A stretch of 64,000 nucleotides of DNA, from positions 62,001 through 126,000 of the forward strand of contig NCRC01000007.1 in NCBI GenBank assembly GCA_002894685.1, read 5' to 3'. The position numbers and the translations under genes are program-made. Positions 502 through 13,397 of this stretch are shown piece after piece; within the stretch, counting starts at the first letter, position 1; each line of letters starts with the position of its first letter. The notes beneath the pieces are model-generated. The model made no database searches, was not told the origin of the DNA, and was given only the letters and a program-made list of their open reading frames with translations. The stretch comes from Salinivenus lutea. GTDB lineage: Bacteria > Bacteroidota > Rhodothermia > Rhodothermales > Salinibacteraceae.

Positions 502-1314
502 TTAGGCCTCTGCACTTGCCGGCTGTACCATCTTGTCCACATTGTAGCCCTCTTCCTCGGACTTGGCCTTCGCGATGCTGTAAATCAGCACGCCGTAGCC
601 GGCCTTCGCGAAGATGTCGGCCAGGGTGTACCCGACCTGAATGACGACGGTCGAGGAGGCGCCGGTCCATCCGAAGAACGGAGCCATGTACACGATGGGG
701 TAGAAGCCCCAGGTGAAGAGCAGCAGGAGCCGAGCATTCCCCAGGAGGGTGGACACTCGCTTCGACTGCTGCTGGATGACATCCCCGAGTCCGGTGAACA
801 GCACATAGAGGATGTACACGAAGGGAAGGGTGCTAAGGAAGCCCCACAGGCCTCGCGTACCAAACAGCTCCGTGCTGGTGCTGACCTCGCCGGGGTATCC
901 GAGCACAATCATCAGCGCGGCGGCAAAGCCGAGCTTGCCCGCCAGCGGGCCGCTTTCGCCTTTCGGAAGGTCCATTACCAGGACGAGTTCAACGACGAGC
1001 AGGGGGACGGTGAGTAGCCAGTCCACGTATCGATACGCGTCGTTGAAGGGCTCGCCGCTAAACTCATACATCCCCGCGGCCTGGTTGAGCGTGTAGGCGT
1101 GCTCCCAGCTGTTGAAAATGCGGAAGTAATGGTAGCCAGCGATCAGGACCACGAGCGCCGATACCATCATCGAGATTCGGTACTTCGGCGCCAGGTTCTT
1201 CTGTGCAAGCACGAAGAACACGAACGCGGCCCCCATCGTGGCGATGGTGAACGAAAACATGTTGTACACCAGGGAATACTGCCCCGGCGTAAGTGAAGGA
1301 AGCTCCTGTAGCAT
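502..1314 (-). CDS. xop: Xanthorhodopsin-type light-driven proton pump
   Basis: A 270-residue seven-helix rhodopsin close to Salinibacter ruber xanthorhodopsin. Visible functional residues: His62 (GYHYF), counterion Asp98 and proton donor Glu109 in the helix C stretch RYVDWLLTVPLLVVE, and retinal lysine Lys237 (FAKAGYG). Gly158 (LWGFLST) matches Gly156 of S. ruber, the small residue that opens the protein surface to the salinixanthin antenna; Leu150, Phe159, Thr162 and Met210 of that pocket are also kept. The start is set at 1314 because GGAGG lies about 7 bases upstream and the N-terminus then aligns; an ATG at 1335 would add seven unrelated residues. Compared with S. ruber there is a two-residue insertion before helix C and a shorter F-G loop. 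The neighbouring genes make carotenoid, fitting an antenna pump. Confidence 0.95.
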   Translation of the reverse strand: MLQELPSLTPGQYSLVYNMFSFTIATMGAAFVFFVLAQKNLAPKYRISMMVSALVVLIAGYHYFRIFNSWEHAYTLNQAAGMYEFSGEPFNDAYRYVDWLLTVPLLVVELVLVMDLPKGESGPLAGKLGFAAALMIVLGYPGEVSTSTELFGTRGLWGFLSTLPFVYILYVLFTGLGDVIQQQSKRVSTLLGNARLLLLFTWGFYPIVYMAPFFGWTGASSTVVIQVGYTLADIFAKAGYGVLIYSIAKAKSEEEGYNVDKMVQPASAEA

Positions 1315-1404
1315 GGATTTGCCTCCGTTGTTCAAGAAAATTGCGAATACGGCTGGCAGTCCATTGTCGAAGCCGTGTGACTCAAGGCGACCGCCAGTTC
1401 GATC

Positions 1405-1446
1405 TTTCTAATACTAGTATATGCACCCTCCCGGAAAAGAGACCAA
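1405..1446 (-). promoter_or_regulatory. Possible xop promoter region
   Basis: In the 200-base gap upstream of xop the minus strand reads TTTGGT, 20 bases, then TATACT, which resembles a promoter with the long spacing used in the Bacteroidota. The perfect palindrome ATACTAGTAT (1411-1420) overlaps the second element and could bind a regulator. This is pattern reading only; no transcript start is known. Confidence 0.3.
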
Positions 1447-1514
1447 ATCGTTCGGACAAATCAGCCCCCAAACTTGTGAGATGGGAGTTATATCTGGCGT
1501 ATATATCTATTTTG

Positions 1515-2285
1515 TCACAATTGCTCCTGGCTTGTGGAGACTGGAGAGGCCGCGGCAATTGTTGATTCGGGGCTGTTCAGCAGCAGAAGGAGCCCTTTCA
1601 CCACCAGGAGATTCGTGGCGAGAAAAAATGTGGCCTCTTCTATGGGCAGGCCGAGCGGGGCAATGCCGAGCGTATAGTCCTTCGAGATGATCCAGATGCT
1701 GAGTGAGATCGCGATGGTGTCGGCGACCCACAGGTAGAGCGTTGGGACCCCGACGGTTATGAGAAGCACGCCCCGATGCGTCCAGAGGGTCTCTCCGTCG
1801 TACAACCACATTCCGGCGAGGAGAGGGCACACCCAGAGGAGGATCAGGGCGAGGTACACCGCAGAGCTGATGGACGCCCACAAGGCGCCCGCCGCAAGTG
1901 CACTCAGGATGGTAAACGTAAGGAATCCTCCCCAGGCGGCCGCTGTAGCGGCGGCGTTCTCCGACGGCTGGCTTCGCCCGGTGCGCATCACATACTGGTA
2001 GAAAAACAGGCCCGTGAGGATGGGTTGAAGCAGGAAAAAAAGGTATTCTTCGACTGGAACTGTGCCGATGGTTGCAATCACGCGATTGGGGCTGTACCAC
2101 CACACCTCGGACGCGACCAAATAATTGTCCCAGGGCGTGGTGTACACAAACGCAATGGCGGCGATGAGTGGGATCGACACCCGGGCACGCCACCCCCCGA
2201 AGGCGTCCAGAGACTGGGGCAAGGTTGCCCACAGGATCAGGATCGGGGGGATAATGAAGAGAAAATGGAATGTGAGATAACTCAT
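1515..2285 (-). CDS. Lycopene beta-cyclase, fused CrtYc-CrtYd type
   Basis: A 256-residue integral membrane protein with two tandem halves of the heterodimeric-type lycopene cyclase. Each half carries an EExxxFF-like signature: PVEEYLFFL in the first and PIEEATFFL in the second, and the first also has the family motif PWDNYLV. In actinobacteria and archaea these halves are either separate subunits or fused as here. The enzyme closes one or both ends of lycopene to beta-rings, a step needed for beta-carotene (retinal precursor) and for ring-bearing carotenoids such as salinixanthin. It starts 34 bases after the stop of the upstream CrtO/CrtI-like gene, so the two are likely co-transcribed, and is followed 200 bases later by xop. 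Confidence 0.88.
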   Translation of the reverse strand: MSYLTFHFLFIIPPILILWATLPQSLDAFGGWRARVSIPLIAAIAFVYTTPWDNYLVASEVWWYSPNRVIATIGTVPVEEYLFFLLQPILTGLFFYQYVMRTGRSQPSENAAATAAAWGGFLTFTILSALAAGALWASISSAVYLALILLWVCPLLAGMWLYDGETLWTHRGVLLITVGVPTLYLWVADTIAISLSIWIISKDYTLGIAPLGLPIEEATFFLATNLLVVKGLLLLLNSPESTIAAASPVSTSQEQL

Positions 2286-2319
2286 GGGGCTGAAAAGAGG
2301 CTCCTTGATATGATCTCTG

Positions 2320-3849
2320 TTATTGCAGCGTAATCTCTTCCAAAATCACTCGAGCTGCATTGCGCCCCGCAGCCCCCATGATCCCGCCTCCCGGGTGCGT
2401 GCTTGCGCCACTGAGGAATAGATCCTCGACCGGTCCCCGGTACGTGCTGTTGGAGAAGAGCGGTCGTCCCATAAACATCTGGTCGAGGGTCATCTCCAGG
2501 TGCATTACATTTCCCCGGAAAAGCCCAAGGTGTTGTTCAAGCCACTCGGGATGCTGAAATAATTGGCCCACGATGTGCTCCCGAGTCCCCGGTGCGTACT
2601 TCTCGAACTGATCGAGGAGGGCGGTGGCTACCTGGTCGGCATCGTTGCGCCAGGTGTTTCCATCTGCCAACTCATACGGGAAATACTGCCCCCACAGCCA
2701 GAGCACTTCCCCGCCCGGAGGCGCGAGGGACGTGTCGGCCGCGCTAAACGTCATGGCCACGAGGGGCGGCTCCGACGACGGCCGTCCGCCCAAAAACTCC
2801 CCGTACGCCCGCCGGATTTGCGATGGGTCGCGGCAGAGGAGCTGAAGTCCGGTGCGGGCCTCGGTCGCTGACTCCGCGGAGTACGACACGGGTTCATCCA
2901 GTGCCAGACGCATCATGGCGCCGAACCCGTTCCCCAGTCGTAGATGATCGGCGCCCTCGGGGCGGTATTTGTCCGGAAGCAGGTGGTCGAACGTTTCCTT
3001 TGCGTGGGTCGCCGCACACACCGCGCGACTGGTGTACGCGTCTCCATTGATTCGAATGCCTCGGGCACGTCCATTCCTGACGAGAATCTCGTCGACCGAG
3101 CTCTCGAGGTGGACGTCCCCGCCGTGCGACTCGATGTGCCGCCGCAAGGCCTGCGTCAGTTCGCCGGACCCCCCTTCGGGACGCGCCACGCCTCCTTCGT
3201 GGTAGAGGGCGTGCCACAATGCAAAGGGGCCGGTGAGGGACTGCGTGGGTGGGGGGCCGGACTGGGCCGCCATCCAGGAGATCATGGCCCGGAGCCTGTC
3301 CTCCTCAAAGTATGAAGCAATGACGTCCTCGTAGGGGCGGAGGATGTGCCGGAGTTCGTCCTGCCACGGAAGCGGGGTGGTCTTTCCCCAAATCATGCGC
3401 TTCCCGATTTCGAACGGGCTCGGGGAAGCGAGGAAGATGTCCCGCATGGTCCGGGCAAACCCAATCCAATCCGTCACAAACTTGTGGTAGGCCTCGCCCT
3501 CGCCCGGATACTTGTTCTCCAGGTGATTCACCGTCCGGTCCAGGTCCCGGTACATAAAGAGGGTCTCCCCATCGGGGAACGGGGCACTGAACATCGGGTC
3601 GAGGTCGATGTACCGGAGCCCGTACTGATTTAGCTCCAGTTCGTCGACGATCGGGGTCTGACGAATCAGGATGTGTGCACTTCCCCCGAGATCCACCTGA
3701 TAGCCGGGCACCAGTTCTTTGGTTGAGACGGCTCCGCCTACGATGTCGCGTTGTTCGAACACGCCCACCCGGTACCCAGCCTGTGCTAGATAGGCACTGC
3801 AGATGAGGCCATTGTGTCCGGCCCCAATCGTGATGATGTCATAATCCAT
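2320..3849 (-). CDS. FAD-dependent carotenoid oxidoreductase (CrtO/CrtI family), probable 4-ketolase
   Basis: 509 residues. The N-terminus DYDIITIGAGHNGL is a dinucleotide-binding GxGxxG-type motif, followed by FEQRDIVGGAVST. The C-terminus FLSGASTHPGGGIMGAAGRNAAR is the second FAD-binding region of the phytoene-desaturase superfamily; the GASTHPGG wording is what I associate with CrtO-type beta-carotene ketolases rather than CrtI desaturases. Because salinixanthin bears a 4-keto ring and the gene sits with lycopene cyclase and xanthorhodopsin, a ketolase role is the likeliest inference. A desaturase or another oxidoreductase of the family is possible. First gene of the carotenoid pair, divergent from the gene at 4074. 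Confidence 0.75.
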   Translation of the reverse strand: MDYDIITIGAGHNGLICSAYLAQAGYRVGVFEQRDIVGGAVSTKELVPGYQVDLGGSAHILIRQTPIVDELELNQYGLRYIDLDPMFSAPFPDGETLFMYRDLDRTVNHLENKYPGEGEAYHKFVTDWIGFARTMRDIFLASPSPFEIGKRMIWGKTTPLPWQDELRHILRPYEDVIASYFEEDRLRAMISWMAAQSGPPPTQSLTGPFALWHALYHEGGVARPEGGSGELTQALRRHIESHGGDVHLESSVDEILVRNGRARGIRINGDAYTSRAVCAATHAKETFDHLLPDKYRPEGADHLRLGNGFGAMMRLALDEPVSYSAESATEARTGLQLLCRDPSQIRRAYGEFLGGRPSSEPPLVAMTFSAADTSLAPPGGEVLWLWGQYFPYELADGNTWRNDADQVATALLDQFEKYAPGTREHIVGQLFQHPEWLEQHLGLFRGNVMHLEMTLDQMFMGRPLFSNSTYRGPVEDLFLSGASTHPGGGIMGAAGRNAARVILEEITLQ

Positions 3850-6187: not shown

Positions 6188-6204
6188 ATGAATCAATCCC
6201 AAGA

Positions 6205-6247
6205 ACGCCCTGAGGTGGGCTATCGTCTGCCTCAGGGCGTTTTCTTT
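6205..6247 (+). terminator. Rho-independent terminator
   Basis: ACGCCCTGAGG (6205-6215) pairs perfectly with CCTCAGGGCGT (6230-6240) around a 14-base loop, followed by a T-rich tail (TTTTCTTT). It begins 18 bases after the stop of the baeRF-like gene and separates it from the recombinase genes. Confidence 0.9.
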
Positions 6248-6283
6248 GTGACGAGCCTTTTGTACTTGATAACAGATTATATC

Positions 6284-7159
6284 ATGTACAAACGGTTTCT
6301 GGAATCCCTCTCGTCAAGGCACACCCGCCGGGCCTACCGGCGAGATCTCGTCCTCTTCGAGTCGATAGCCCGACCCTCTTTTGCGGAGGCCACCCAAGAG
6401 ACCGTCCGATCCTTTCTTTCGGACCTCCGAGATCGAGGCGAATCCGTCTCCACGATCCGTCGCCGCCTGAGCGCCCTGCGCTCGTTCTACGAGTGGATGC
6501 GAGAGGAGGGCCACCGTGAGCAGAACCCGGCCCGGGAGGTCCAGGTGAGCATCGCGACGTCTGACCATTCCACCTCGCCGCTCGACGCCGATGCGCTCCA
6601 GCAGCTGATGTCTTCGGTTGCGGGCGACACAAAACGCGCCGTCCGCGCCGGTGCCCTCATCCGAGTCATACTCTACGGGGCGCTGCGCCGAGGGCCTCTC
6701 GCCCGTCTCAATGTCGACGATGTTCGTCCGCTGGGCCGCCGCTGGGTCATTAACCTTCAATCGCACGACGGGCGCGGAGGATACATTCCAATCCCAACGT
6801 CCGCCGTGGAGGCGGTGGAGCGCGTGAAAGAACACTTTTCGATCGACCACGGCCCGCTGTGGCGTTCGCTCAGCAACCGGAGTCGGGGCGAGCGACTATC
6901 GCCGGATGCACTCTACAAGATCGTACGTCGGGCCGGGCGCGAGGCCGACCTGGAGGCGCCGGTTACAATTGACCGGCTGCGGACGGCGGGACTGAACGTG
7001 GCCATGGCGGCAGGCGCGCACCCGGAGGATGTCCGCGTGCACTCCCGACTTCGGAATTCGCGCTCGCTTGCGTCGCACCTCTCAGGATCTTCGGAGGCAG
7101 CCGGACTCCGCCCGGACGTGCCGGCTCGGATCGAAGAGGCGCTGTCGGATGCGGAATGA
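6284..7159 (+). CDS. Tyrosine-recombinase-fold protein lacking the catalytic tyrosine
   Basis: 291 residues from ATG 6284; an upstream in-frame ATG at 6188 would place the terminator inside the gene. Residues 1-95 resemble the SAM-like core-binding domain of phage integrases (HTRRAYRRDL, TIRRRLSALRSFYEWM). The catalytic domain keeps Arg135 (YGALRRGPLARL) and Arg233, but the usual HxLR histidine is Asp230, the LGH histidine is replaced near residue 257, and there is no tyrosine at all after residue 211, so the nucleophile is absent. It cannot cleave DNA by the standard mechanism and may be a DNA-binding partner or regulator. It precedes an intact recombinase by about 115 bases. Confidence 0.75.
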   Translation: MYKRFLESLSSRHTRRAYRRDLVLFESIARPSFAEATQETVRSFLSDLRDRGESVSTIRRRLSALRSFYEWMREEGHREQNPAREVQVSIATSDHSTSPLDADALQQLMSSVAGDTKRAVRAGALIRVILYGALRRGPLARLNVDDVRPLGRRWVINLQSHDGRGGYIPIPTSAVEAVERVKEHFSIDHGPLWRSLSNRSRGERLSPDALYKIVRRAGREADLEAPVTIDRLRTAGLNVAMAAGAHPEDVRVHSRLRNSRSLASHLSGSSEAAGLRPDVPARIEEALSDAE

Positions 7160-7213: not shown

Positions 7214-7248
7214 CTGGTGTCCGATAACATTTCATTATCGGACACTAG
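7214..7248. other. dif-like inverted repeat, candidate recombinase binding/recombination site
   Basis: CTGGTGTCCGATAA (7214-7227) and TTATCGGACACTAG (7235-7248) are inverted copies with one mismatch in 14, separated by the 7-base spacer CATTTCA. The inner 11 bases of each arm are perfect. Two 11-base arms ending ...ATAA and starting TTAT... around a 6-8 base centre is the architecture of Xer/dif and other tyrosine-recombinase core sites. It lies 26 bases before the recombinase ATG at 7274, so it could also be an autoregulatory operator. Confidence 0.6.
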
Positions 7249-7273
7249 GTTTCGCAGTGCCTTTTTCGCCGAT

Positions 7274-8338
7274 ATGCCATCCGCCGTGCCCTCTGATTCA
7301 AGCCCTGACTCTGACAACTCGTCCAGTGCCGACGACGAAGAGCCGCGGACGCTCTCCGTAGAATCCACCGACGACTCAACGCTCTCCCGACAGGCGAAAG
7401 ATGCCGAACGAGCGCGGGCGTTTGCCGAACAGGCTCGGGCCGAAAATACCAAACGCGCCTACCGCGCCGACTGGCAGCAATTTCAAGCGTGGTGCGCAGA
7501 ACGCGACCACAGATCGTTGCCGGCCTCGACCAAGACCGTGGCTCTTTTTCTGGCGTCGATCGCTGATTCGTACAAGCTGTCGAGCCTCGAACGCAAGCTG
7601 TCCGCCGTTAGTCAGGCGCACAAGGCGGCCGAACATGAGAGTCCCGCGCTGACGACGGACGAGCCGCTGCATTCGGTGTGGTCCGGAATTGTGCGCTCGA
7701 AGGGGCGCGCCAAAGACAAAGTGGCCCCGGCCCTTACGGAAGACATCCAGCTGATGGTGGACCACCTTCCCCGAACAGACGGCGAGGAAACGCTCACACT
7801 TTCGGCCTCCCGGGACCGAGCAATTCTTCTGATTGGCTTTTCCGGGGCCCTTCGGCGGAGTGAGATTGTCGCCCTCACGACCGATGACATCAGCTTTTCG
7901 GCAGATGGGGTGCGGCTCGTCGTCCGCTCCAGCAAATCCGATCAGGAGAGCCGAGGACTCACCAAAGGAATTCGCTACGGGAGCAATCCCTCGACCTGTC
8001 CGGTTCGTTCGTTGCGCTCCTGGCTCAACCGGTCGGGGATCGATGAGGGGCCGCTGTTTCGTAGCATCGATCGGCACGGGAATATTGGAGACAGCGCCCT
8101 GAGCGGACGGTCGGTGGCGCGCATTGTCAAGCGCTCCGCCAAGCGGGCGGGCATGGACCCATCCCAATACAGTGGACATTCCCTGAGGGCAGGCTTTACG
8201 ACGCAGGCCGCCCGGGCGGGAACGCCTGAGCGGGTCATCATGCGACACACCGGCCACAAGTCCGAGCGCATGGTTCGCGAATACATTCGGGAGGGACGTC
8301 TCTTCCGCGAAAACCCGACGGAAGACCTCGGCCTTTAA
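7274..8338 (+). CDS. Site-specific tyrosine recombinase, complete active site
   Basis: 354 residues from ATG 7274; a GTG at 7217 would translate through the inverted repeat and is disfavoured. The N-terminal 50 residues are Ser/Asp-rich and probably disordered. A core-binding domain follows (NTKRAYRADWQQFQAWC), then the catalytic domain with the full set: Arg194 (GALRRSE), Lys221 (SSKSDQ), His302 and Arg305 (GHSLRAGF), His328 (HTGHKS) and Tyr337 (MVREYIR). The enzyme should catalyse strand exchange through a 3'-phosphotyrosyl link. No flanking attachment duplication or cargo was seen, so it may be a resident recombinase rather than an integrated element. Its stop codon overlaps that of the convergent methyltransferase gene. 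Confidence 0.88.
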   Translation: MPSAVPSDSSPDSDNSSSADDEEPRTLSVESTDDSTLSRQAKDAERARAFAEQARAENTKRAYRADWQQFQAWCAERDHRSLPASTKTVALFLASIADSYKLSSLERKLSAVSQAHKAAEHESPALTTDEPLHSVWSGIVRSKGRAKDKVAPALTEDIQLMVDHLPRTDGEETLTLSASRDRAILLIGFSGALRRSEIVALTTDDISFSADGVRLVVRSSKSDQESRGLTKGIRYGSNPSTCPVRSLRSWLNRSGIDEGPLFRSIDRHGNIGDSALSGRSVARIVKRSAKRAGMDPSQYSGHSLRAGFTTQAARAGTPERVIMRHTGHKSERMVREYIREGRLFRENPTEDLGL

Positions 8339-9276
8339 TTTTCGCCATGTACGCGGGCGAGCACGTCGAGCTGCCCGGCGTGATAGATGAGGTGCTCGTC
8401 CTCCACACACTGTCGTCTGTCGTCGATCCAATTCGACAGGGTGGCGGACGACACCCGGGCATCCGACGCCAGTTCCTGCTCAACGAAATGCAGGATGTGA
8501 TGGAGAAAATAGGCTTCGTCTCCAGCGTATCCTATGGATTCCTGCGGATGGACGAGCCAGTCTGAGCTTCCGACGTCGAGAAGAGCGCCGATGTTGGGAA
8601 GCCCCTCCAGCAATTGCCTTCCCGTGTGCGCACCGCCCGTAGGCCCCTCGTCGGTCTGGCGGGTCATGCTCTCGTGGTAGTACGTGGTGATTTGCCGCGA
8701 CGGAAACTCAGGGCGCTCCGGAAGGAAGCGCGTCCGGCCGTCGAACGTCAGCGGAAAATACAACACTCCTCCCTCCTTCGTTTTCCGATTGATGAGCCTG
8801 AGGGTTTGTGGGACGTTTACTAGATCAATAAATGATTGTGCAATAACGGAACTTATAGAACCGTCAGCGGGCGCAGTCAGGTACTGGGTCGCGTCCATCG
8901 GATAAAAACGAAACAGAATCGACTGCCTCCCCCGCGAGCATCGAAGCTGATCGGAATCCCCCTGAACATCGAAGCCCTGGTCTTTTCCCCACTCACGAAG
9001 TTTCGTAGCGGCCTCCCCCAACAGCTGAGGCGATTGATCGATCAGGTTGTACTTTATCGACTGGGCCGGCCCCTCACGGAGGGCCTGGACCACTCGCTGC
9101 GCCGTGGGCCCCTGCCCCGCCCCCAGATCGACAATCGAAAGCGCACCGTTCGATTCCCCGGCCAACCGGTCCAGTTCTTCGATGTATCGATCCGCCACCC
9201 TGCGATTGAGGGCCCGCTCGTCGACGGTTTGCTTGGCTTTGAGGTATCGCGAAAGGGAATACGACGGTGGGATCAT
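8335..9276 (-). CDS. SAM-dependent methyltransferase, last gene of the RibA/PTPS operon
   Basis: 313 residues of class I methyltransferase type: motif I is VDLGAGQGPT (about residues 48-57), with an acidic residue after strand 2 (NLIDQSPQ) and a DLVNVPQTLRLINRKTKEGG region matching motifs IV-V. The substrate cannot be named from sequence. It begins 21 bases after the stop of the PTPS-like gene and is the last of four tightly packed minus-strand genes, so it probably modifies the product of that pathway. It ends tail-to-tail with the recombinase, the stop codons overlapping by four bases. Confidence 0.8.
   Translation of the reverse strand: MIPPSYSLSRYLKAKQTVDERALNRRVADRYIEELDRLAGESNGALSIVDLGAGQGPTAQRVVQALREGPAQSIKYNLIDQSPQLLGEAATKLREWGKDQGFDVQGDSDQLRCSRGRQSILFRFYPMDATQYLTAPADGSISSVIAQSFIDLVNVPQTLRLINRKTKEGGVLYFPLTFDGRTRFLPERPEFPSRQITTYYHESMTRQTDEGPTGGAHTGRQLLEGLPNIGALLDVGSSDWLVHPQESIGYAGDEAYFLHHILHFVEQELASDARVSSATLSNWIDDRRQCVEDEHLIYHAGQLDVLARVHGEN
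8839..8850 (+). repeat. Copy 1 of the 12-base repeat TGCAATAACGGA
   Basis: Exact TGCAATAACGGA on the plus strand, inside the methyltransferase gene (read there as Ser-Val-Ile-Ala). One of four exact copies, all in the same orientation. Confidence 0.5.
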
Positions 9277-9297
9277 CGGTCGTAGCGCGCTGGAGGA

Positions 9298-9681
9298 TTA
9301 GGAAAGGTCATCAAGTCTGCAGGCGGCCCAGGCGTGGTCGTCCTCCCAAATCCGCACCGAGAGCCCCTCGAGGGGCTCCGTGTTCAGCCCCTCCCGGACC
9401 TGTCCCGCGACAATCCGGGCGAAGTGCTCCACACTCGGATTCAGCCCTGCGAACGCATCGCACTCGTTCAGCGTCGCGTCGCGGTATTGGTCCTCGAGGG
9501 CATCCATAACCGACTCCACCTCGGTGATGTCCACCAGATACCCGTTTTCATTTAGCGACGGACCCTCCAACCGGACCTCGAGCTCGAAATGATGGGAGTG
9601 AAGATCATTTTCGGGGCCGCAGTCCGGGACCGTAAGGAAGTGCTGGGCGATGAAATCGCGGCGGACCATCAACTCGTACAT
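9298..9681 (-). CDS. 6-pyruvoyl-tetrahydropterin synthase / QueD-family enzyme
   Basis: 127 residues, normal for the PTPS fold. Zinc ligands appear to be His14 (FIAQHF), His28 and His30 (LHSHHF), with a candidate catalytic Cys21 (PDCGPEND). A conserved-type Glu occurs in NPSVEHFA and another in SVRIWEDDH. Family members act on dihydroneopterin triphosphate (folate, biopterin or queuosine pathways). The Cys-to-His spacing (C-x6-H-S-H-H) and the HSH in place of HGH are unusual for QueD, and no other queuosine gene is nearby, so a different pterin-like substrate is suspected. It lies 15 bases after the dehydrogenase and 21 before the methyltransferase. Confidence 0.85.
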   Translation of the reverse strand: MYELMVRRDFIAQHFLTVPDCGPENDLHSHHFELEVRLEGPSLNENGYLVDITEVESVMDALEDQYRDATLNECDAFAGLNPSVEHFARIVAGQVREGLNTEPLEGLSVRIWEDDHAWAACRLDDLS

Positions 9682-9696
9682 AGGCGGAAAGAAAAA

Positions 9697-10752
9697 TTAG
9701 CGGTAGCGCAGGATGGGTTGCAGAAGGGCGGGATCGCCGACATTCAATTCCTGATACGCCTGGGGCGCGTCCGACACCGGATAGGAGTGGGTCACGAGTT
9801 GCTCGAAGTCATTTGACTCCAGGAGGGCGAGGACGACCTGCATGCGACGCGATTTGGACCACCGCCCCCGGTACTCCGGCGCAATCGTGCTAACCTGGCT
9901 GCTTCGAAGGTCCATTCGCGACCGATGAAACCGCCCCCCGAGCGCCAGCTCGCTCTTCTTGGTGCCGTACCACGACCCAACGACGATGCGCCCAGCGAAC
10001 CCCGTACAGCCAACAGCCATGTTGAGCACATCTGGATCTCCACTCACTTCGTACGTGAGGTCCGCCCCTTCAAAGTGCTCAGTGGCCTCCACGGCATCTT
10101 CGGAGGATACGCCCAGCGCCTCGTGGAGGGCCTCCTCCTCATCGGGACGGAACGTATGATGCGCCCCCAGTTCGCGCGCCCAGTTGCGTCGGACCTCGGC
10201 CGGCTCGACCGAGAGGAGGGTCTCAATTGGATGCCGCGCCAGGAGTGCCGTGGTCAACAGCCCCACCACCCCTTGCCCAAAGATCACAACCGACTCCCCG
10301 ACCATCGGCCGGCCATCCATCACAAAGTTCACGGCCGTCTCCACGGCGGGCACCAATGCCGCTTCTTCGTCGGAAATATCATCCGGGAGAGGCACCAGGT
10401 CGTCCGGCGAACAGGTAAACGCCGAGGTATGCGGCTGAAAGGCAAAGACCCGCGTCCCCCTCCAGTCGCCCGCCACCTCGTCCCCGATCATATCCACCGT
10501 CCCCACACACGCATACCCGTACGTGAGAGGAAAGTCCAGGGACGCGCCGTCCATAGACGAAAAGGTCGCATCCGCCGGGAGCTCCGACGGGGCCTTCCCC
10601 TGGTAGATCAGTCGCTCCGTTCCCGGGCTGATGCCCGACAGGATTGTTTGCACTCGAACCTCCTCAGGGGACGGCTCGGGGACCGGCCCCTTCCGGACCT
10701 TCACACGACCGGGGGCCTCAAACGAAATCGTTCGACGAACGGACGAAGCCAT
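9697..10752 (-). CDS. Medium-chain (zinc-type) alcohol dehydrogenase family oxidoreductase
   Basis: 351 residues of the MDR superfamily. The N-terminal GroES-like part includes ILSGISPGTERLIYQG and FPLTYGYACVGTV; the Rossmann part includes VVIFGQGVVGLLTTALLA, a GxGxxG-type cofactor motif. The classical catalytic Cys and structural four-Cys zinc lobe are not evident, so it may be a zinc-independent reductase. It sits between the RibA-RibD_C fusion (18-base gap) and the PTPS-like gene (15-base gap), suggesting that it reduces or oxidises an intermediate of the same pathway. Confidence 0.82.
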   Translation of the reverse strand: MASSVRRTISFEAPGRVKVRKGPVPEPSPEEVRVQTILSGISPGTERLIYQGKAPSELPADATFSSMDGASLDFPLTYGYACVGTVDMIGDEVAGDWRGTRVFAFQPHTSAFTCSPDDLVPLPDDISDEEAALVPAVETAVNFVMDGRPMVGESVVIFGQGVVGLLTTALLARHPIETLLSVEPAEVRRNWARELGAHHTFRPDEEEALHEALGVSSEDAVEATEHFEGADLTYEVSGDPDVLNMAVGCTGFAGRIVVGSWYGTKKSELALGGRFHRSRMDLRSSQVSTIAPEYRGRWSKSRRMQVVLALLESNDFEQLVTHSYPVSDAPQAYQELNVGDPALLQPILRYR

Positions 10753-10770
10753 TATTGTTGAGGATGAGAC

Positions 10771-12168
10771 TCAGCGGACGGAAGCCCAGGAGGGGGTTCC
10801 TTCAACGACAAGGTCTTCGCCCAGGGAATGGTAGCGCACATGTTCGAGATGCGTCCCCTCCTCCATTGGTTGGTCGAGAGCGGCGACGCCGCCCACAAAC
10901 TCCGGGGCGATCGTCACAATCACCTTGTTTGCGATGCGCTCGCGGAAAAAGCTCGTCAGTACCGTGCAGCCGCCCTCCACCATCACACTCTGCAGGCCGA
11001 GCGACGAAAGCCGCCGAAGGACGGCCGGCAGCGGGAGAAGACGATCAGTCGCTGCCTCATCCGACGCATGCTCCTCGGCGTCGTCCCGGAAAGGAATCAC
11101 CTCAATGGTCGCCCCGGCCGCCTCCAGCGCGCGTTTCCGGTCGGGCGGCGGGTCGGGCGCAGTGCACACGATGGGGCCAGGGCCGTCCCCGGTCAGCAGG
11201 CGGGCGGACGTCGGCAACCGGAGCGACGAGTCGAGCACAATCGGGCGGGGGTGGGCCCCTTCGCTCCGACGGACGGTCAGGCGAGGATCGTCGGAAAGCA
11301 CAGTACCAATGCCCACGAGAATTCCATCGTGCGCTGCTCGGAGCTGATGGGTCATCTCGAGCGAGCGGTCCCCGCTTAGTACCATCGGCGCGCCCTCGGC
11401 CTTGGCAATCGACCCATCCAGGCTTTGCGCATAGGTGAGCGTCACAAAAGGCACCTCATGCTCACGCGAAAATTGGCGGGCCTCCGACTGGAGGTCGGCG
11501 AAATCAATTGTGCCGGTGGTTTCAGATTCCGCATGGACCGTTTTCCCGGCGGCTGCCCCGTTCGTCGGTCCCAGGTCGAGCATGTGGCGCATCCGGTTGA
11601 CTTTCGTCCGGAGATACTCGGCGTTGTGCTGGTTCACATGCGGCCCAAGCGGGACCCGCTCCTGAACCGAGACCCCGTGCTGCTCCAGACTCTCGATTTT
11701 CTCCGGATTGTTGGTTAAAAGCCGGACGGAGGAAATCCCAAGATCCTTCAGAATGAGGGCCCCGATGGAGTAGTCGCGCTCGTCGGCCTCGTGGCCAAGC
11801 ATTCGATTGGCTTCAACAGTGTCATACCCTTCGTCTTGAAGATCGTAGGCCCGAAGCTTATCAAGTAGCCCAATGCCGCGCCCCTCTTGGCGGAGATACA
11901 AGAGCACCCCTCGCCCCTCCTCCGCGATTTTCCGGAGGGCCGCATCGAGTTGTGCCCCACAGTCGCAGCGGAGCGACCCCAGAACATCGCCCGTGAAGCA
12001 CTCGGAATGGATGCGGACCAGGACGTTGTCGATGTCCTGGACATCGCCGTAGAGCAGAGCGAGATGATCCTTCTCGTCAACACTATTCTGGTACAGCGAC
12101 AGAGTAAACTCCCCGTCTTGAGTGGGGATGCGAGTGTCAGTCAGTCGCTGGACGGAGCGAGAAGTCAT
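10771..12168 (-). CDS. GTP cyclohydrolase II fused to a RibD-type reductase domain
   Basis: 465 residues from ATG 12168; an upstream in-frame start at 12342 adds 58 residues with no family resemblance. Residues 1-200 are GTP cyclohydrolase II, with the zinc site HSECFTGDVLGSLRCDC (Cys57, Cys68, Cys70) and the LRQEGRGIGLL loop. Residues about 238-465 are a RibD C-terminal reductase domain (VTLTYAQSLDGSIA, SDDPRLTVR, VMVEGG). No deaminase domain and no RibB domain are present. The expected chemistry is GTP ring opening and reduction of the ribosyl to a ribityl chain without deamination. No FMN riboswitch signature was found upstream. It is first in a four-gene operon that is not a standard riboflavin operon. 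Confidence 0.9.
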   Translation of the reverse strand: MTSRSVQRLTDTRIPTQDGEFTLSLYQNSVDEKDHLALLYGDVQDIDNVLVRIHSECFTGDVLGSLRCDCGAQLDAALRKIAEEGRGVLLYLRQEGRGIGLLDKLRAYDLQDEGYDTVEANRMLGHEADERDYSIGALILKDLGISSVRLLTNNPEKIESLEQHGVSVQERVPLGPHVNQHNAEYLRTKVNRMRHMLDLGPTNGAAAGKTVHAESETTGTIDFADLQSEARQFSREHEVPFVTLTYAQSLDGSIAKAEGAPMVLSGDRSLEMTHQLRAAHDGILVGIGTVLSDDPRLTVRRSEGAHPRPIVLDSSLRLPTSARLLTGDGPGPIVCTAPDPPPDRKRALEAAGATIEVIPFRDDAEEHASDEAATDRLLPLPAVLRRLSSLGLQSVMVEGGCTVLTSFFRERIANKVIVTIAPEFVGGVAALDQPMEEGTHLEHVRYHSLGEDLVVEGTPSWASVR

Positions 12169-12554
12169 ACGGCAGGGGAGCACCTGCGGTGAGAGTGACA
12201 GAAATGGCGATCGGGCACGCCCGCCCGGCAGGAGTGATTTTGCTAAAGACAGCACGAGCACTATGTCCCCTCCCGCCCCGGTGTTTCCCGTGCCGTCGAG
12301 TTCCTTCGGTCCGTTACAACCCCGATTAATTATCCCATCCAAGCGGGCGAAGCATTCACTCGGGCCTCTGCCCCCGATGCGTAGAGAACCAGTCGACCGG
12401 TCTCCGGTATGGGAAATTAACGACCACCTTTCCTAGGTAGCGAACTCTAACTGTTCCTATCCGCGTTCGGTCCCCCACCCTCCCTGCGGGGTCTCCGGCG
12501 TTGAACGACCAACGCTCTCCTCGTCATCCCCTATTGCCGAATTCCCTCTCCTGC
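12169..12554. other. Divergent intergenic region, 386 bases
   Basis: This gap separates the divergent RibA-RibD_C operon and the ThiD-like gene. The only compositional feature is a short AT-rich patch (GATTAATTATC, 12324-12334), possibly promoter DNA. I looked for FMN riboswitch consensus segments on the minus strand and TPP riboswitch segments on the plus strand and saw neither. No convincing small gene or tRNA is present. Confidence 0.6.
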
Positions 12555-13397
12555 ATGAACTTCCGTCCCATCGCCATTAATGCGCTTTACCCCGGCATCG
12601 GGCGCGGCCTACGTGCCGATCTACTCAGCGCGCAGGCACTTGGAGGAACTGCCTACTCAGTGTGTACGGCCCACGTGGTCGCCGGGCAGGGCACCGTCAC
12701 CGACGTCTTAAACGTGCCGACAGATACGGTGTCCGCCCAATTTGAGCACCTCGCCGCCACCGAAGCCCCAACGGCCGCAAAAGTCGGAATCATCGGCGAC
12801 GCCCCCACGGTCGAAGTGACATTCGATCACCTCGAAGACTTTGAGGGGCCCGTCGTTCTCGACCTGACGCTCAGCGGCCCCAGTGGCGAAGACGTACTGG
12901 GACAAGATGGCCTGGCGGCCCTGCTCGACCACCTCGACCGGCCCGACCTCGTCACCCTCCGGCTGAAGGACGCGACCCTCGTCTCGGGCATGGAAATCCC
13001 CAGCCTCGACGATGCACAGGTCGCCGCACAGCGCGTCGCCCAACAAGGCGCGGAACGCGTCCTGCTCCGCTGCGGCCGCCTCCCAACGCACCACTTTGAG
13101 ACCGACTCCTCCCCTCCCAAGTACGCCGTCGATCTCTACTACGATGGCGAAGATTTCGCCCTGTACGAGGCGCCGTTTCTTTCTGACCTTGACGCATTCC
13201 ACGGAGCGTCGAGCGGCCTTGTCTTGTCCCTCCTCCACGCCCTCCAATCGGGAACCGCGATGGAAGATGCGCTTCAACAATCCAAGGGACGCGTGAGCGA
13301 AGCCCTTCACGCCGCTCAGCAAGCCGATGACCCGGCCGGTCCCGCCTTCTTTGACACCCTCCGCACCAAACCCACAGTTGAGGAAACCGACCTCTAG
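12555..13397 (+). CDS. ThiD-like (HMP kinase family) protein with degenerate active site
   Basis: 280 residues from ATG 12555. Overall it tracks ThiD: a start region aligning to the AGxDxSGGAGIQADLK loop but reading ALYPGIGRGLRADLLSAQALGG, then TAHVVAGQGTVTDV, a KVGIIGD segment equivalent to KIGML, and a C-terminal helix region DAFHGASSGLVLSLLHAL. The GxGC motif that supplies the catalytic cysteine and anion hole is not conserved, and the KGGH nucleotide motif reads LRCGRL. It may be a non-catalytic or re-purposed ribokinase-fold protein rather than a thiamine enzyme. A LacI-family regulator follows after 53 bases. Confidence 0.65.
   Translation: MNFRPIAINALYPGIGRGLRADLLSAQALGGTAYSVCTAHVVAGQGTVTDVLNVPTDTVSAQFEHLAATEAPTAAKVGIIGDAPTVEVTFDHLEDFEGPVVLDLTLSGPSGEDVLGQDGLAALLDHLDRPDLVTLRLKDATLVSGMEIPSLDDAQVAAQRVAQQGAERVLLRCGRLPTHHFETDSSPPKYAVDLYYDGEDFALYEAPFLSDLDAFHGASSGLVLSLLHALQSGTAMEDALQQSKGRVSEALHAAQQADDPAGPAFFDTLRTKPTVEETDL

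Follow-up and report, generated by a model that had tools for sequence, protein, structure and literature searches.

What is made by an operon that begins like riboflavin synthesis and continues with a dehydrogenase, a pterin synthase-like enzyme and a methyltransferase? The question is raised by a 64,000-nucleotide stretch of the Salinivenus lutea genome (contig NCRC01000007.1, positions 62,001 to 126,000; hereafter the window). Four open reading frames on its minus strand encode a bifunctional RibA-RibD_C fusion (10771..12168), a medium-chain dehydrogenase/reductase (MDR) family dehydrogenase (9697..10752), an enzyme of a distinct subgroup of the 6-pyruvoyltetrahydropterin synthase (PTPS) family (COG0720; 9298..9681) and a class I S-adenosylmethionine (SAM)-dependent methyltransferase of an unnamed subfamily (8335..9276), with intergenic gaps of 18, 15 and 21 bp along the operon. 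We favor, with moderate confidence, the reading that the operon encodes a dedicated biosynthetic pathway, branching off the first riboflavin intermediate and leading to a methylated, sometimes glycosylated, pterin-like product. The narrower claim, of a dedicated branch that starts with reduction, is quite probable from the sequence comparisons described below.

Gene content and conserved linkage

Pfam and NCBIfam domain searches identified GTP_cyclohydro2 (E 3e-71, residues ~10-173) and RibD_C (E 3e-39, residues ~240-455) in the fusion, and found no deaminase domain in it. The MDR gene matched ADH_zinc_N, the PTPS gene matched PTPS (E 3e-25), and the last gene had a weak class I methyltransferase match. 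A bacterial riboflavin operon comprises RibA, RibB, bifunctional RibD, RibE and RibH; of these, the present operon encodes RibA and the reductase domain of RibD only. The original prediction, made from the sequence alone, is borne out in these respects: the ORF coordinates agree with four minus-strand genes spaced by 15-21 bases, the domain matches agree with a GTP cyclohydrolase II fused to a RibD-type reductase and with a methyltransferase as an operon member, and ribB, ribE, ribH and the RibD deaminase were correctly said to be absent from the operon.

Gene order and strand were kept in 17 of 18 Rhodothermota loci, which come from a phylum-wide search and the genome scan and include two loci from one species. 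An MDR of the operon's family was found in 77 of the 86 loci carrying the PTPS, and this, together with the recurrence of the same four families in the same order, indicates linkage beyond chance. Conservation of the neighbors in relatives had been named beforehand as one of two points on which the original prediction would stand or fall; the neighbors are clearly conserved. The view of the operon as a unit with a GTP-derived, ribityl-type entry is supported. The full-length fusion is confined to the host's family among the matches listed in the phylum-wide search (394 genomes). A family 4 glycosyltransferase (GT4) lies between the PTPS and methyltransferase genes in six of the 17 order-keeping loci, and some Rhodothermota loci encode, in addition, a CDP-alcohol phosphotransferase or a protein in which Gfo/Idh is fused to an aldo/keto reductase. 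In one Rhodothermaceae metagenome-assembled genome (MAG), the position of the RibA-RibD_C fusion upstream of MDR-PTPS-methyltransferase is occupied by a gene for an ABC transporter ATPase (L064:7855-8964).

The PTPS scan of genome contigs detected 159 relatives; 80 were retained, and the closest is from Salinivenus iranica (97% identity). Haloarchaea account for 64 of the 80; their loci have MDR, PTPS, sometimes a glycosyltransferase, and the methyltransferase in variable order, without RibA, and the archaeal GTP cyclohydrolase III (GCH III, PF05165) adjoins the cluster in 30 of these 64 loci. A survey of 400 Chloroflexota genomes led us to fetch 20 loci with strong and 12 with weaker PTPS matches. 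The MDR-PTPS-glycosyltransferase arrangement was detected in 18 of the 20 strong loci, whose stretches contain RibD_C in six cases and RibA in six, two as a RibA-RibD_C fusion (L226:3674-5089 and L228:3889-5391), and RibD_C-MDR-PTPS-glycosyltransferase was found in 5 of the 12 weaker ones. A Microbacterium plasmid carries genes for a CDP-alcohol transferase, MDR, PTPS, GT4, methyltransferase, LPG-synthase-like membrane protein and RibD-family protein. No relative of the PTPS was found in the viral collections scanned. In a tree, the haloarchaeal MDR and PTPS form one side of a single branch (100/98), and repeated exchange between haloarchaea and Salinibacter is not supported.

A probably dedicated reductase and its front end

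The GTP-opening enzymes are swapped between the domains of life. Among the genomes searched, GCH III was detected in 28/28 haloarchaea versus 0/11 bacteria, and GTP cyclohydrolase II (GCHII) in 9/10 cluster-bearing bacterial genomes versus 1/28 haloarchaea, the exception being Halorhabdus amylolytica (G405), in which the GCH III is broken. GCH III occurs at more than one locus in ten of the haloarchaea. As for RibD_C, most of the haloarchaea sampled encode just one, the shared ArfC, and two are found in Rhodothermota that carry the fusion: a canonical RibD of ~400 amino acids and the fusion itself. Such a pattern is expected of a pathway that takes 2,5-diamino-6-ribitylamino pyrimidinone phosphate as its starting point, a compound made by archaea in any case but not by bacteria. 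Haladaptatus halobius (G420, locus L099) has 26 RibD_C/DHFR-like matches, far above the other genomes.

A deltaproteobacterial MAG points to the part of the fusion that belongs to the pathway. There, a 249-amino-acid RibD_C gene overlaps the MDR gene and RibBA has its place in a ribE-ribBA-ribH operon, suggesting that the reductase, rather than RibA, is the dedicated part; the full RibD is encoded elsewhere, and PTPS, glycosyltransferase and methyltransferase genes are on another contig. According to the RibD_C domain tree, the cluster reductases of three phyla group together (99/96), apart from the host RibD (100/100) and from haloarchaeal ArfC (98/95). The cluster reductase does not group with archaeal ArfC, and the derivation of the fused domain from haloarchaeal ArfC is not supported, but the reductase may still act in the manner of ArfC.

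The residue aligned with Lys151 of Bacillus subtilis RibG, a lysine that Chen et al. (2009) reportedly proposed to select the deaminated substrate, further separates these proteins. Lysine is present in 8/8 canonical RibD and asparagine in 27/27 archaeal ArfC; the fusion of the host has threonine, and so lacks the mark of a bacterial RibD reductase. The cluster reductases have threonine or serine, with histidine in one weaker-type Chloroflexota cluster and, by eye, glutamine in the Actinomycetota protein. Absence of the lysine fits reduction of the non-deaminated pyrimidine by the dedicated reductases, as in archaea, where reduction precedes deamination, to judge from two titles in the reference list of PMC8305020 (246 and 247).

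The GCHII half of the fusion appears to have a second duty. Its three zinc cysteines and its catalytic motifs are intact (HSECFTGD, RCDCG and RQEGRGIGL), as expected for a GTP cyclohydrolase II. The host genome has two GCHII matches, the fusion and the housekeeping RibBA (G000:C21:6584-7075, L002), which reads HSQNVLGD...REEYS at the zinc-cysteine sites. All three zinc cysteines are lost in the RibBA of five fusion-bearing Rhodothermota genomes (the host and L181-L184), in the four relatives in similar or different ways; they are kept in same-order genomes without the fusion and in the fusion-bearing MAGs G399 and G400. RibBA, a full-length RibD and RibH are encoded on other contigs of the host genome. 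The expectation of a normal rib set elsewhere therefore held for the RibB domain, RibD and RibH, but not for a second working RibA.

Judged by these residues, no intact GCHII was found in the host genome besides that of the fusion, which must then supply riboflavin synthesis as well as the side branch, because RibBA has lost its GCHII zinc cysteines. Deletion of arfA (HVO_1284) in Haloferax leads to riboflavin auxotrophy, as listed in a table of PMC8305020, and dependence of riboflavin synthesis on the operon's RibA would parallel that case. This suggests that vitamin B2 synthesis in Salinibacter-like bacteria depends on an operon-housed enzyme, the original one having decayed.

Proposed route and competing explanations

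In the proposed pathway, RibA, assigned from its family and supported by the lack of any other intact GCHII in the host genome, would open GTP to 2,5-diamino-6-ribosylamino-4(3H)-pyrimidinone 5'-phosphate. The fused RibD_C, on the comparative evidence, would reduce this non-deaminated pyrimidine to 2,5-diamino-6-ribitylamino-4(3H)-pyrimidinone 5'-phosphate. In haloarchaea, their own GCH III and ArfC would provide this front end, so that MDR, PTPS and methyltransferase would suffice. A hydroxyl of the ribityl chain would then be oxidized by the MDR. If this happened at C2', the resulting ketone could, on chemical grounds, form a ring with the 5-amino group, and a 7,8-dihydropterin phosphate would arise with no need for GTP cyclohydrolase I (GCHI). 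Taken alone, this ring closure by the MDR is put forward tentatively. The MDR has GYA aligned with the zinc GHE of 6ie0, with Gly79-Tyr80 in 77/77 sequences, and thus lacks the GHE of zinc-dependent MDR alcohol dehydrogenases; its nearest NCBIfam model is BchC, a weak match (score 74, cut-off 291).

Remodeling of the side chain would fall to the PTPS-family enzyme, in which the metal site and the Glu that anchors the pterin are retained. His14, His28 (83), His30, Glu24, Asp68 and Glu113 (85) are conserved among 86 sequences: the three His are the metal ligands, Asp68 takes the place of the catalytic His in the alignment with QueD, Glu113 is the pterin-anchoring residue, and a Cys is present in 18/86 and not conserved. 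The motif definitions of a 2016 review (PMC5041015) set the enzyme apart from the known classes. It has ExxxHSH in place of CxxxHGH of PTPS-I (QueD), it lacks CxxxxxHGH of PTPS-II (biopterin), and its Glu lies one residue farther from HSH than in ExxHGH of PTPS-III (folate). It also has (C/P/A)GPE(N/G) at the place of the PTPS-IV signature FGPAQ; the same review relates PTPS-IV to F420 (unpublished) and calls PTPS-V unclear. The AlphaFold model (predicted local distance difference test, pLDDT, 94.6) matched SCO6650 (3d7j) best (Z 18.1, 27% identity), followed by PTPS/QueD structures (Z ~17).

The methyltransferase, together with the GT4 glycosyltransferase and CDP-alcohol phosphotransferase of many relatives, would tailor the product. 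Its AlphaFold model (pLDDT 96.3) has the Rossmann-like fold and GxGxG motif of class I SAM methyltransferases, and its closest Foldseek matches (TM 0.55-0.62) are small-molecule N-methyltransferases (histamine NMT). Extended to all lineages, the scheme becomes a GCHI-independent pterin route common to haloarchaea, Rhodothermota and Chloroflexota, with GCHII or GCH III, a reduction-first reductase, MDR oxidation at C2', a PTPS with novel chemistry and a methyltransferase, commonly joined by a glycosyltransferase, making a possibly lipid-linked pterin; in this full form we consider it possible but doubtful.

Several points weigh against the proposed pathway. The main argument is that GCHI is present in these bacteria, so that a second source of dihydropterin would be redundant. 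No measured activity was found in the literature for any enzyme of the subgroup, and we infer both the product and what the MDR and PTPS catalyze. Some loci, namely L064 and over half of those fetched from Chloroflexota, have no front-end gene nearby, and the presence of glycosyltransferase, CDP-alcohol transferase and methyltransferase genes varies between loci. The reading of the Lys151 position depends on the reported proposal for that lysine.

The redundancy of a 2'-keto route to dihydroneopterin phosphate beside GCHI, and PTPS catalytic residues unlike those of known activities, would also suit another explanation, in which the same front end operates and the ribityl chain is kept. The MDR would then oxidize another position or make a carbonyl partner, the PTPS would act as a lyase or epimerase, and instead of a 6-substituted dihydropterin the product would be an N8-ribityl pterin or a modified pyrimidine nucleotide. 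However, conservation of the Glu that anchors pterins, together with the PTPS fold, suggests that the substrate is a 2-amino-4-oxo pteridine of the normal type, and we regard this explanation as unlikely.

Alternatively, the fusion could be the lineage's riboflavin RibA with a spare reductase, and the MDR, PTPS and methyltransferase genes unrelated and downstream by chance. The status of the fusion as the genome's only intact GCHII beside a RibBA without zinc cysteines agrees with this, as do the Haloferax auxotrophy and the haloarchaeal MDR-PTPS-methyltransferase clusters standing without RibA. Yet the host genome has a complete canonical RibD, and the lysine of bacterial specificity is missing from the dedicated reductase. 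In the deltaproteobacterial MAG, RibD_C goes with MDR and RibBA with the rib operon. A GTP-opening enzyme lies beside MDR-PTPS also in Chloroflexota and haloarchaea, and G399 and G400 have the fusion despite an intact RibBA. Such a chance arrangement is improbable.

A folate (PTPS-III type) or queuosine (QueD) arrangement, for which PTPS family membership and an invariant Glu loosely like that of PTPS-III could be cited, is rejected as highly improbable: ExxxHSH is neither CxxxHGH nor ExxHGH, Asp replaces the catalytic His, the identified neighbors include no recurrent folate or queuosine gene, and GCHI and FolB are encoded elsewhere in the host genome, where a second PTPS (CxxxxxHGH) adjoins GCHI. 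The predicted independence of the operon from folate, biopterin and queuosine genes is thus supported.

If the proposed pathway is true, an uncharacterized, widespread pathway would drain the first riboflavin intermediate. It would account for the PTPS gene beside the archaeal GCH III gene in many haloarchaea, and would give a function to the PTPS subgroup now labelled 6-carboxytetrahydropterin synthase.

Genomic surroundings and related systems

The region upstream of the operon (12169..12500, assigned to the minus strand) separates it from a divergent thiD-like kinase gene (12501-13397, plus strand). The Rfam search near the operon, including this region, detected neither an FMN riboswitch nor any other Rfam family. 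The thiD-like gene keeps its position in most Rhodothermota loci, adjoining a lacI-type regulator; it recurs only in Rhodothermota, within this larger syntenic block, and was therefore not counted in the pathway. Two tyrosine recombinase genes (6188-7159 and 7217-8338, plus strand) are downstream of the operon and convergent with it, and integrase-like genes also trail the operon in several relatives. Genes for bacteriorhodopsin-like, lycopene-cyclase-like membrane and phytoene-desaturase-like proteins, identified by eye, are grouped at 502-3849 on the minus strand.

Literature searches found no characterized cluster or member of this kind, although an earlier mention may exist. Toxoflavin-type clusters combine GCHII, RibD and a methyltransferase and resemble the operon in a methylated, GCHII-derived pyrimidine; unlike the operon, they include a RibD-type deaminase and, to our knowledge, no PTPS or MDR. 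BchC, the bacteriochlorophyllide 3-hydroxyethyl dehydrogenase, is like the operon's MDR as a secondary-alcohol dehydrogenase and its best NCBIfam match, but the score is far below the cut-off and the operon has no bacteriochlorophyll context. Tetrahydrobiopterin PTPS and QueD share the fold, metal site and pterin-anchoring Glu with the operon's PTPS, in which the Cys is not conserved, the catalytic His is replaced by Asp, and GCHII rather than GCHI is upstream.

PTPS-IV includes the closest solved structure and nearest sequence match, SCO6650, whose segment reads FGPAQRLHGA; the operon's PTPS lacks FGPAQ and keeps the three metal-ligand His and the Glu. A 2017 network study (PMC5445326) reported a PTPS-IV cluster with PF00925 and PF01872 neighbors, calling PF00925 FolE2, which is the PTPS/GCHII/RibD_C association, mislabelled.

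The archaeal and fungal riboflavin route (GCH III/ArfA, ArfB, ArfC/Rib7) is similar in reducing before deamination, through 2,5-diamino-6-ribitylamino-4(3H)-pyrimidinone 5'-phosphate, a compound normal in archaea and fungi but off the bacterial riboflavin route, and the haloarchaeal clusters contain GCH III itself. The operon differs in that its bacterial GCHII is fused to a reductase from a clade of its own, and in having MDR, PTPS and methyltransferase where the archaeal and fungal route has a deaminase, RibH and RibE.

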